In this document: positions 3,800 to 6,652 of the stretch, one piece after another
Layout of the letters: each line of letters opens with the position of its first letter
Numbering within the stretch: the first letter of the stretch is position 1
Assembly (NCBI GenBank): GCA_031266495.1
Contig: JAISAX010000043.1
Location: 1-6,744 of the forward strand
Source of the DNA: Opitutaceae bacterium
GTDB taxonomy: Bacteria; Verrucomicrobiota; Verrucomicrobiae; Opitutales; Opitutaceae
Reading direction: 5' to 3'
DNA length: 6,744 nucleotides
Made by a program: the position numbers and the translations under genes
Notes under the pieces: generated by a model
What the model was told of the DNA's origin: nothing
Seen by the model: the letters and a program-made list of their open reading frames with translations, nothing else
The model's database searches: none

Positions 3800-3831
3800 C
3801 GAGACAGCGGATACAAGACGGACGTTCACTT

Positions 3832-3860
3832 CCCCCCCCTCCCCCCTCTCTCTCTCTCTC
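3832..3860. repeat. Homopyrimidine tract C8-T-C6-(TC)7
   Basis: Eight C, one T, six C and seven TC dinucleotides, followed by TTGCACCTCTCTC. This is the same C-run, single T, C-run, (TC)n order as at 2880-2912, with similar flanking sequence after it (CTGCCTCTC versus TTGCACCTCTC). It lies about 32 bases upstream of the beta-propeller ATG, so it falls in the leader or core promoter. Confidence 0.9.
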
Positions 3861-3892
3861 TTGCACCTCTCTCTGCGCTCGTGCCATCAACC

Positions 3893-5134
3893 ATGATACC
3901 TCCGGTCATCCGACTGTTTTTTCACATATCTCTCGCCATTCTTGCCACTCTCGCCGCGACCGTGGCCGCCGTTTCAGCACCGCTGGTCCAGCGCATGGTC
4001 GAGAGTCCGGAAGGCTGTTATTTCACGTATCCGCATGCCAACGGATTTTTGCCCGATGGCCGCACCCTGGTGCTGGCGCGTCCCGATGCTCCGCCGCCCG
4101 GAGGCAAGAGCGGCCGCATCACCTTTCTCCTCTTCGATCCGGCGACCGGTGCGACTTCGCCCGCCGGTTCCCTCGCCGGCGTCAAGATGTATTACGGCAT
4201 TTCGCAAACCGGCGTGCTCGTGACCAACGCCGGCAATTCCCTTGTCGTGATGGCACTCTCCGGTGGCGAGGCCACCGCCCGCGTGCTTTGGGAATCCGCC
4301 GCTCCCTGGCGCCTGAGCGATCTTCCGGACATCTCGCCTGACGGCGAAACCGTCCTCGCCGATTTTCACGACTACACCCCGCCCGGCCGTCACCAGATGC
4401 GCCTTTTTCGCGTGGACGGTGACAACGCCGGGGGCGGGCGCGTAGTGCTGGAAAAATCCTGGCTGCTCAACCACACGCATCGCAGCCCGGCCGACCCGGC
4501 GTGGATTCTGTTTTCACACGAAGGCAGCCTCGTCACCGATCGCATGTGGGCCTGGCATCCGGACGCGGCTCCGCAAGGCCGGGCGATTTTTGACCAGATC
4601 GCGCCTGACGGAAAACCCCTCTACATCGGCCACGAACTCGCCATGCACCACAAGCCCGCCGCGCTCGCCGTGGCCTTCGGTAACAGCCCGGGCAGCCCGC
4701 GCGGACTCTACGAGACCGGTTTCGCCGGTTCCGGTGCCGACATCGTGGATACGCCTCATGCCCGCCCGGTTTCGCCCGGCGAACGCGACTGGCACTGCAA
4801 CATCAGCCGCGACGGACGCTGGGCGGTTGTGGACACGATGGGACGCTTCGACGACACCGGCCCCATCCTCCCCGGCTGGGCCGACAACGGCGGCGTGAGC
4901 GACATCGTCGCCGTCAACCTCCGCACCGGCGCCCGGCAATTTCTCCATCGCGGCAGTTTCCTGCGCCCGCACCCCTGGCATCCGCATCCGCACATCAGTC
5001 CGGACGGCCGCCGGGTGATCTGCAACGATGCGCAAACCCGCCGCGTCCGCGTGCTGGAAATCGATCCCGCCGCGCTGGAGGCGTTTCTTGGCGGCGACGG
5101 GCCGGGTGGGACGCCGGTGGTTGCTCGACAATGA
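3893..5134 (+). CDS. Secreted beta-propeller, oligogalacturonate lyase-like
   Basis: A 413-residue exported protein. Residues 1-29 are a Sec signal peptide (hydrophobic LFFHISLAILATLAATVAAVS, cleavage expected after VSA). The rest shows the repeating ISPDG-type loops of TolB/PD40 beta-propellers, at 147-151, DG near 240, SRDG near 305-308 and ISPDG at 368-372. Several features recall oligogalacturonate lyases (polysaccharide lyase family 22): SHEG at 208-211 followed by DRMW, GHE at 246-248, WHCNIS at 300-305, and the His-rich loop HPWHPHPH at 360-367, which could form a metal site. In PL22 these enzymes cleave short oligogalacturonides by beta-elimination with Mn2+ held by histidines. Characterised PL22 enzymes are mostly cytoplasmic, so the signal peptide is notable. 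The enzymatic role is inferred; a non-catalytic propeller is possible. ATG 3893 is preferred over GTG 3881 because it starts right at the signal peptide. Confidence 0.72.
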   Translation: MIPPVIRLFFHISLAILATLAATVAAVSAPLVQRMVESPEGCYFTYPHANGFLPDGRTLVLARPDAPPPGGKSGRITFLLFDPATGATSPAGSLAGVKMYYGISQTGVLVTNAGNSLVVMALSGGEATARVLWESAAPWRLSDLPDISPDGETVLADFHDYTPPGRHQMRLFRVDGDNAGGGRVVLEKSWLLNHTHRSPADPAWILFSHEGSLVTDRMWAWHPDAAPQGRAIFDQIAPDGKPLYIGHELAMHHKPAALAVAFGNSPGSPRGLYETGFAGSGADIVDTPHARPVSPGERDWHCNISRDGRWAVVDTMGRFDDTGPILPGWADNGGVSDIVAVNLRTGARQFLHRGSFLRPHPWHPHPHISPDGRRVICNDAQTRRVRVLEIDPAALEAFLGGDGPGGTPVVARQ

Positions 5135-5244
5135 CAGCCCCGGTGGCTGTCTCCGCGCTACCACCCTGCATCCGGGGGCGGCTGGCCGGCAAGATTCCTG
5201 GCGGCTTGCGATTCTCCGGCGAGGGCGCGCACGCTGGTCACAAC

Positions 5245-6357
5245 GTGAAGCTCGATGCATCCAGGATCACCATGGCGGCGGTGGCGGCCAGGGCGGGCGT
5301 CAGCCGCATGACGGTGTCGCGGGTTTTTCGTGACGATCCGTCCATCCCTCCGGCCACGCGCGAGCGTATCCGGCGTGTGGCGACGACGCTCGGTTACCGG
5401 CCCGATCCGCAAATTTCGCAATTCATGGCGCGGGTGCGCGTCAGTCACCGCGTCGGGGCCGAGACCATCGCCTGGCTCACGACATGGCCTGCGGCCGACG
5501 CCTGGCGGAAAAACTCGGCGAGTCTTGCATTCTACGAAGGTGCGTGTGCCCGCGCCGCCGAATTCGGTTACAAGATCGAGCCATTCTGGCTGGGAGAGCC
5601 GGGCATGACCGGACGGCGGATGAGCGACATCCTGCGGGCGCGTGGTATTCGCGGTGTATTGGTGGGGCCTCTGCACGAAGTGGGTTACCGGATCGATTTG
5701 CAATGGGAGCATTTCGCGGCGGCGACCTGCGGCGGCTATTCGCTGGTCGAGCCTGGATTGCACCGTGCCTGCTGCCATTATCTGCACGCGGTGAAAACCG
5801 CTTTCGGTGCGCTTGGCCGGCTGGGTTACGAGCGGATTGGCGTGGCCTTTGGCGACGAGGTGAACGACCGCCTCGCCGGCGAGTGGCTGGCCCAGGCGTA
5901 TCTGGAACAGAGCCGGTTGCCCGGGACGCGTCGCGTGCCGCCATTGATCGCGGCCCGGTGGGCCGAGGGAGGATCGCGATTCATGAAGTGGTTTTGTCGA
6001 TACCGTCCCGATGCTGTCCTGTCGTTCGAGCAGGTGCCGGGCTGGCTGGCGGCGAACGGAGTGCGTATTCCGGATGACTGCGGTTTCGCACTGATCGACA
6101 TACCGATGAAAGGTGTCGCCTATGTGGATGAACAGCGCGGAGCCGTCGGCGCGGCTGCGCTCGATCTCGTCATCGAACAACTCAATGTGAACCGGCTCGG
6201 TCCGCCGGCCACCCCCAAGATTGTGCTGGTGGAATGCAAGTGGGTGGATGGTCCCACCGCGCCGCCAAAGGCGCCGGGTCCGGGGGCGAGGGTCGAAGGT
6301 CAAAAGTCGGAAGGTCGAAGGTCGGAAAGCCGGAAGTCAGGCACTGTAAGGAAATAA
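5245..6357 (+). CDS. LacI-family transcriptional regulator
   Basis: A 370-residue DNA-binding repressor. Residues 10-30 (MAAVAARAGVSRMTVSRVFRD) are the helix-turn-helix, followed by IPPATRERIRRVATTLGYRP. The usual hinge helix (NxxARxL type) is replaced by DPQISQFMARVR, a variant I associate with Verrucomicrobiota members. Residues about 70-335 form the periplasmic-binding-protein-like effector domain (ETIAWLTTWP; GIRGVLVGPL; LGRLGYERIGVAFGD; YRPDAVLSFEQVPGWLA; GFALIDIP), expected to bind a sugar. I chose GTG 5245 because it gives a normal-length LacI N-terminus. ATG 5131 overlaps the previous stop (ATGA) and would allow translational coupling, but adds 38 residues without recognisable domain; ATG 5272 is another option. 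The natural end is probably near WVDGPTAPP (333-341). Residues 349-365 are encoded by heptamer repeats, and 366-370 plus the stop by the arm of the 160-bp element. Confidence 0.87.
   Translation: MKLDASRITMAAVAARAGVSRMTVSRVFRDDPSIPPATRERIRRVATTLGYRPDPQISQFMARVRVSHRVGAETIAWLTTWPAADAWRKNSASLAFYEGACARAAEFGYKIEPFWLGEPGMTGRRMSDILRARGIRGVLVGPLHEVGYRIDLQWEHFAAATCGGYSLVEPGLHRACCHYLHAVKTAFGALGRLGYERIGVAFGDEVNDRLAGEWLAQAYLEQSRLPGTRRVPPLIAARWAEGGSRFMKWFCRYRPDAVLSFEQVPGWLAANGVRIPDDCGFALIDIPMKGVAYVDEQRGAVGAAALDLVIEQLNVNRLGPPATPKIVLVECKWVDGPTAPPKAPGPGARVEGQKSEGRRSESRKSGTVRK
6291..6338. repeat. Degenerate heptamer/octamer tandem array
   Basis: Units are GGTCGAA, GGTCAAA, AGTCGGA, AGGTCGAA, GGTCGGA, AAGCCGGA and a partial AGTC. 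Two units are 8 bases long, which shifts frame within the array. The array lies inside the LacI reading frame and encodes a basic tail rich in Arg, Ser, Lys and Glu. It abuts the 160-bp palindromic element. Confidence 0.8.
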
Positions 6358-6498
6358 ACGGTGCGAAGATGCGCCGGGATTGAAGAGGGAGCCAAGGAGC
6401 TGACACGGGAGTTTACCGAGGTAAATGACCGTGGCAGCGACGCTGGCTCCCTCTTCAAGACCAAGCAGATTCGCACCGTTTATTTCCTTACAGTGCCT
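6339..6498. mobile_element. 160-bp nested palindromic element (MITE- or BIME-like)
   Basis: The outer arms 6339-6367 and 6470-6498 are perfect 29-bp inverted repeats (ends AGGCACTG and CAGTGCCT). Inside, 6380-6394 and 6444-6458 form a perfect 15-bp inverted repeat (TTGAAGAGGGAGCCA and complement). The core continues with GCTG/CAGC (6399-6402/6435-6438), CACGG/CCGTG (6404-6408/6429-6433) and TTTAC/GTAAA (6412-6416/6421-6425) around the tetraloop CGAG. About 58 base pairs can form in one long hairpin. TCA occurs at 6337-6339 and again at 6498-6500, a possible 3-bp target duplication if the element is 6340-6497. No transposase is encoded; the 68-codon plus-strand frame inside is a palindrome artefact. 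The arm recurs at 1929-1954. The family is not recognised. It is either a non-autonomous transposable element or two REP-like hairpins in inverted orientation. Confidence 0.75.
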
Positions 6499-6586
6499 CA
6501 GCACCGGCCCGCCGGAACGGCGGCATTCCTGCCGCTGCGACGAGGCGCGGGTAAGTGTTTAGCGTGATCGGGAAGGTCCGGGGAGC

Positions 6587-6630: not shown

Positions 6631-6652
6631 GGGGGCGGGGGGGGGGGGGGGG
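6631..6652. repeat. G5-C-G16 homopolymer tract
   Basis: Five G, one C and sixteen consecutive G on the plus strand. It is strongly slippage-prone and able to form G-quadruplexes, and the length in an assembly is uncertain. It separates the twin hairpins from the AT-rich island. Confidence 0.9.

Follow-up and report, generated by a model that had tools for sequence, protein, structure and literature searches.

A 160-base palindrome in the window, the 6,744-nt stretch of DNA analyzed here over its whole length, seems to be one member of an old, widely distributed family of hairpins that move. Its folded core recurs in relatives at many places in the genomes of Verrucomicrobiota and, contrary to expectation, of Pseudomonadota. 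The best explanation, to which we give a probability of roughly three in four, is a trans-phylum MITE-like family whose members, about 160 bp long, are mobilized in trans by a DDE transposase with a TNA target and carry a conserved structured core with a putative function. The relatives are dispersed, have inserted at TNA and duplicated 3 bp there, and form one long hairpin kept by compensatory changes, with an internal loop, CAAGG opposite RACGC, that is nearly invariant in 25 aligned cores; a DDE transposase as the mover and a function of the core are what we infer. A transposase of this kind, as in the IS1031 group of the IS5 family, would recognize the arms in trans, excise or copy the element, and insert it at TNA. 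The folded core, as a transcript or as extruded DNA, would be maintained by selection and would probably account for the persistence of the element, perhaps by serving as a structure for mRNA processing or at mRNA 3' ends; alternatively, it may be a site for a protein that the element needs.

In the window, the palindrome spans positions 6339 to 6498. Its left arm (6339-6367, plus strand) and right arm (6470-6498, minus strand) are reverse-complementary over all 29 bases, and the triplet TCA, of the TNA type, stands at 6337-6339 and again at 6498-6500. The perfect arms and flanking TCA described in the earlier note were thus confirmed on the sequence, and the pairing extends further inward than claimed there: the repeat finder reported a wider inverted pair of 44 nt around the arms, 86% complementary with a spacing of 92 nt, and an inner stem pairs TTGAAGAGGGAGCCA (6380-6394, plus strand) with TGGCTCCCTCTTCAA (6444-6458, minus strand) perfectly over 15 bases. 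Since the terminal A and T belong to both the arm and the target repeat, the element proper is GGC...GCC, 158 bp at 6340-6497, and its plus orientation was set by the asymmetric core. The left TCA was accepted as a target repeat from the TNA borders and the empty site found in relatives. The conserved folded core, delimited by the match to the core model R2, lies at 6378-6459 on the plus strand and contains the two strands of the internal loop, CAAGG at 6393-6397 and GACGC (RACGC in the alignment) at 6439-6443, and an apical hairpin, GTTTACC-GA-GGTAAAT, at 6411-6426, supported by the fold and by the alignment of relatives.

The 160 nt fold into a single hairpin of -118.5 kcal/mol, compared with a mean of -45.7 for shuffled sequences (z = -20.75), and none of 200 shuffles was as stable; the opposite strand reached -108.9 (z = -18.7). 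Internal loops of the hairpin are small and mostly symmetric, and the symmetry of the palindrome is not due to chance. In the window, every Rfam family stayed below its gathering score, and a permissive scan returned eight weak matches, mostly to microRNA models and far under the cut-offs, such as any long hairpin would be expected to give. Open reading frames of at least 60 amino acids that overlap the element extend into its flanks, and no transposase is encoded within the 158 bp, so that the element is short, has terminal inverted repeats, and lacks an internal transposase, as MITEs do.

The palindrome comes after a LacI-type ORF (5131-6357) on the same strand, and its left arm, which includes the A-rich motif GGAAATAAA, similar in kind to that of other subfamilies, contains the final five sense codons of this ORF (GTVRK) together with its TAA stop (6355-6357). 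Among proteins of named organisms, the LacI-type protein is most similar to one of Opitutaceae bacterium TAV4 (71% identity), with one of Geminisphaera colitermitum at 58%, and the window genes look like those of termite-gut Opitutaceae, as far as their sequences indicate. In related LacI-type proteins, the C terminus lies a few to about 25 residues past the conserved GPTAPP; the tail of the window ORF (6289-6357) has 30-odd residues with low-complexity repeats (GGTCGAAGGTCGGAAAG) and ends at the stop inside the element, and the relatives are shorter. Directly after an AraC-type gene, at 1924-1957, is a 34-base palindrome, GTAAGGCACCG-TTTATTTCCTTA-CGGTGCCTTAC, that matches 25 of 26 bases of the right arm of the element and was found by the covariance model R1 at E 0.03 with filters off; from its sequence, it may be a solo end of the element or what an internal deletion has left of it. 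Intergenic regions contain long runs of C or G, and runs of CT, at 2880-2907, 3828-3861, and 6633-6652.

A BLASTN search with the 160 bases, in which the best three candidates per genome were scored, gave matches at E 0.01 in 14 of the 252 genomes of the Geminisphaera family, and the matches were strong in six (G218, G118, G214, G093, G122, and G221; best E values 6e-22 to 4e-8). Several of the weaker matches cover only 20 to 35 bases and may be due to chance; R1 found nothing in G013 and reached E 0.07 in G001. The strong matches fall in the interior of the query, and their flanks reveal hairpins of about 160 bases, each with its own arms. R1 was built from 13 such Opitutaceae copies, scored the window element at 163.1 bits on the plus and 77.6 bits on the minus strand, and matched 13 of the 252 family genomes and 11 of 387 genomes in a Verrucomicrobiota sample. 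At least nine places were recorded in G218 and at least six each in G118 and G122, counts that are lower bounds, since 3, 7, 11, 58, or 150 candidates were scored per genome depending on the search, and in which one place may count on both strands. Several unrelated sites per genome, another mark of MITEs, were therefore observed in relatives of the window element, and the multiple copies at different sites that the earlier note had asked for were found there.

The elements are 158 to 170 bp long across relatives, and their arms follow one plan, GG(N about 10)AAATAA, in every subfamily that was compared. Among eight representatives, the arms were 58 to 63% identical, compared with 34 to 35% after shuffling. 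In subfamily B, from G122 and G119, 14 paired-arm units were recognized among 27 arm matches, with 0 in the reversed-pattern control; the remaining arm matches are broken or cut by contig ends. Exact patterns of the window arms had 0 matches in viral contigs and 0 in genome contigs, so the ends of the window element were not met elsewhere, and blastn of the window element against phages and plasmids gave no match.

Some copies had unusual surroundings. Locus L278 (361-819, contig C105 of G554) holds four tandem core copies at a spacing of about 125 bases. At about 7035-7234 of L182 (G221), an A-type element without its right end adjoins a B-type arm, an arrangement that, judged from the sequence, possibly reflects nested insertions. 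A palindrome of about 55 bases, AGGGCACTTTGATT...AATCAAAGTGCCCT, abuts an element in L145 (149-205, G016) and L249 (782-2161, G093); similar ends, AGGGCACTTT, border an IS-like unit that encodes a PF01609 transposase and lies in another genome. In the Verrucomicrobiota loci L157, L160, L266, and L297, copies adjoin sequence that by eye resembles a tRNA 3' end on the opposite strand, and a scan of L298 placed a tRNA near the copy.

Mobility was evident in one gene of a relative. In G122 (L180, 2977-3138), the element interrupts a stretch encoding the C terminus of pyruvate phosphate dikinase, and TAA is doubled: the filled site reads ...TTCTGCCATAA[GGG...CCC]TAAGGTCG..., that is, CCA-TAA[GGG..CCC]TAA-GGTC. 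The uninterrupted site with a single TAA is present in G118 (L173; ...TTCTGCCATAAGGTCGG..., short form CCATAAGGTC), and an uninterrupted paralogue lies on the same G122 contig as the filled site (...TTCTGCCACAAGGTCGG..., short form CCACAAGGTC). The enzyme was assigned on the G118 copy (TIGR01828, E 1.3e-74; PF02896), and the interrupted G122 copy, which diverges beyond the insertion too, may be a decayed duplicate. The empty site with one target triplet that the earlier note had named as a test was thus found, with one TAA in G118 and two in G122.

Borders were compared in 47 copies, namely 53 less two without flanks at contig ends and four without a GG..CC pair. TNA was present on the left in 28, on the right in 26, and on both sides in 17; the 30 of 47 copies without TNA on both sides count against the best explanation. 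The two-sided copies carried the same N in 14 of 17 cases, and a palindromic arrangement with complementary N occurred in 0 of 17. Left and right triplets were equal in 15 of the 47, compared with a shuffled mean of 5.4, and 0 of 20,000 shuffles reached that number. The target-site duplication expected of a MITE was thus seen both in the filled and empty TAA sites and in these borders, and the proposal of a non-autonomous mobile element with a TNA duplication is supported by the relatives at unrelated sites; it is through these relatives that the window copy itself is judged to be probably mobile. A preference for stop codons was considered and rejected: the TNA target alone yields TAA- or TGA-like borders, and one copy is intragenic. 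Two insertions are common to two genomes each, in L183 and L184 (elements identical at 156 of 162 positions, flanks 92% and 86%) and in L175 and L186 (131 of 163, flanks 92% and 80%), so that some copies persist long.

The reach of the family was determined with R2, a model of 25 cores that covers the core only. It matched the window at 87.0 bits (E 1.7e-21), a copy that is among its training cores, and at E 1e-3 it matched 46 of 387 Verrucomicrobiota genomes. The family of G282 had matches in 29 of 78 genomes, with at least 52 in G336 and at least 40 in G508, numbers that may likewise include one place on both strands. In a set of 385 Pseudomonadota genomes meant as a negative control, 62 were matched. 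The best of these matches show the whole plan, TAAGGGC..CGGAAATAAATAA...TTCAAGGCG...CAACGCAGAA...AGACCAGCAGAAT...CCCTAA. With a strict pattern, CAAGG...RACGC was present in 29 of 40 Pseudomonadota matches and absent in 11, including all six from G692. TNA flanked 9 of 12 Pseudomonadota copies on both sides, with the same N in seven of the nine.

A profile built on sequence alone from the 13 Opitutaceae copies found 3 of 10 Pseudomonadota loci, all ten having been picked with R2, and 0 in 20 shuffles; one of the three matches covered model positions 2 to 162 at E 1.1e-6. R2 gave nothing at E 0.1 in three whole control genomes (14.2 Mb), nothing at E 1 in 28 viral loci (240 kb), and nothing under E 0.33 in 80 LacI-relative loci (774 kb; best 17.0 bits). 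A Pseudomonadota relative had no blastn match in phages and plasmids, and among the matches listed against E. coli genomes the query was represented solely by its tRNA-Ile end, no record covering 80%. Two tRNA genes flank the core in G793 (L313, 1501-1583; L377; L378) and in G843 (L380), and the L313 copy is inside the 16S-23S spacer of an rRNA operon.

Among the 13 copies found by BLASTN, double changes that keep the pair occurred at 30 of 51 pairs, and covariation was 0.373 compared with 0.167 ± 0.013 after shuffling and at most 0.093 with slid partners. For the 25 cores, from ten groups, the corresponding values were 20 of 24 pairs and 0.642 compared with 0.183 ± 0.019, with slid partners at or below 0.164, so the covariation required of a structured RNA exceeds what column composition yields. 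The CAAGG and RACGC columns are invariant or above 90% in the 25 aligned cores, and 'nearly invariant' is valid for these cores only, because 12 of 37 elements were excluded, five because they nearly duplicated groups already represented and seven because no loop pair could be read in place (L150, L158, L151, L142, L189, L187, and L185); the G519 elements, among those excluded, differ in the first loop. Because shared descent inflates covariation and transposon ends must match, these values indicate a maintained palindrome and not by themselves an RNA. Higher conservation in the core than at the ends was considered and dropped, as mean identity was 0.58 and 0.63 in the arms and 0.51 in the core (eight representatives, 28 pairs), and only the loop nucleotides stand out in the core.

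The earlier note had taken the perfect arms as a sign of recent activity. The arms are perfect; the recency argument is weaker than stated, because compensatory change maintains pairing across copies. As a refutation, it had named a single copy at a syntenic position together with compensatory changes typical of a conserved RNA; the changes are present, in a combination with mobility that the note had not foreseen, and the element is in 0 of 80 LacI-relative loci, so the syntenic half did not hold. The likeness of the first eight bases to IS26 ends, which it thought a coincidence, looks like one, and the 8-bp duplication is absent.

A tentative reading, which we hold to have about half the standing of the best explanation, takes the core itself as the selected unit: a structured RNA or extruded single-stranded DNA module common to both phyla, with lineage-specific ends and a loop recognized by a protein, which would be the mover or else a factor of the host. 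If true, this would be a transposon family defined by an RNA-like core and not by its transposase.

Slightly less probable is movement by a transposase outside the IS5/IS1031 type, for example an IS630/Tc1-like enzyme for the TA-flanked subfamily, with different movers for different subfamilies. Borders of subfamily B in G122 and G119 read TA|GGG...CCC|TA, G519 copies have CTAG-like borders, and others have TNA; the common arm plan argues against separate movers. The TNA target and 3-bp repeat of the IS1031 group are both seen in relatives, with TA instead in subfamily B, and the target points to this group as a likeness, not as membership; the element could be assigned to no IS family. No arm-like ends were found at 30 PF01609 loci in 9 of 10 genomes, no matching ends at three PF13340 loci (3 of 10 genomes, one over the cut-off), and analyzed loci totalling 1.66 Mb had no arm pairs at a distance from each other. 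Because the genomes are mostly fragmented assemblies, this failure to find an autonomous element is weak evidence against the best explanation.

It is unlikely that the family is first of all a structured RNA gene or cis-regulatory RNA, with the arms as its outer stem and its spread secondary, by retro- or recombination-mediated routes. Variable covarying stems around a nearly invariant internal loop are a classic RNA-like pattern, and copies lie beside tRNA ends and, between two tRNA genes, in a 16S-23S spacer. Such an origin is opposed by the exact 3-bp TAA duplication around the intragenic copy, the TNA border repeats, and a genomic neighborhood that is unconserved across the 80 LacI-relative loci. 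The strand test over 57 copies gave a weak excess of G-U pairs (272) over A-C mismatches (204), and no orientation bias was seen toward the 5' neighbor (same strand 20, opposite 22, unknown 11; n = 53) with a crude gene call that gave the wrong strand at the LacI region of the window. Rfam scans of 20 relatives' loci found no family over the elements and rRNA, tRNA, and StyR-44 elsewhere in the loci, so membership in a curated RNA family was not found.

A REPIN, that is, two inverted REP units moved by a RAYT tyrosine transposase, is very improbable: the 3-bp target duplication and a conserved core of more than 80 nt do not fit, the GTAG/GTGG tag is not conserved in alignments A2 and A6, and no GTAG- or CGTC-tagged REP units of 20 to 40 bp were recognized, despite the inverted hairpin units, a window arm that can fold on itself (GCACTG...CGGTGC), the solo copy at 1924-1957, and the richness in GTAG repeats described for O. 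terrae, also of the Verrucomicrobia (PMC3733652). A plain transcription terminator or chance palindrome, suggested by a strong hairpin after a same-strand gene, can practically be set aside given how long the palindrome is, its relatives at unrelated sites, its flanking target repeats and conserved core, and the absence of a T-run after the hairpin.

MITEs are usually seen as short-lived, lineage-bound IS leftovers. The conservation of a loop and covarying stems across two phyla, and the dozens of matches that some genomes contain, suggest that the interior of a MITE may function; we know of no other MITE with such a two-phylum conserved core, and of no mover assigned to ERIC. The analysis provides a searchable model (R2), a concrete loop for mutation, and a mover to seek. 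It is also a caution for searches aimed at structured RNAs or at MITEs, since the same object can qualify as both. Such a family would also account for one class of palindrome at which MAG assemblies break.

No description of this family was recognized in the open-licence literature searched, from which PMC3733652, PMC10969869, PMC7031236, PMC12016507, and PMC4853749 were consulted. By anatomy and behavior, the element is a MITE and not a REPIN. It resembles REPs and REPINs as a dispersed palindrome; REPs are 20 to 40 bp long, carry a GTAG or CGTC tag, and are plentiful in Opitutus terrae (PMC3733652), whereas the present elements have 158 to 170 bp, a target duplication, and no tag. With the IS1031 group of the IS5 family, described as preferring 5'-TNA-3' and producing a 3-bp direct repeat (PMC12016507), it shares both properties, but no such transposase with matching ends was found in the genomes searched. 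Candidate structured RNAs from comparative screens likewise show covariation with conserved loops; unlike them, the element is mobile and multi-site, with no host gene association and no Rfam match. Large MITE families with unknown parents are also described in a Thiomargarita paper. Bacterial MITEs such as ERIC, Correia/NEMIS, RUP, and Nezha are, according to a review, short and mostly extragenic, with inverted ends and a target duplication, and like the present element they have no apparent coding capacity and a predicted stable hairpin transcript (PMC10969869); the present family differs from them in having one core, with a nearly invariant loop and covarying stems, in two phyla.
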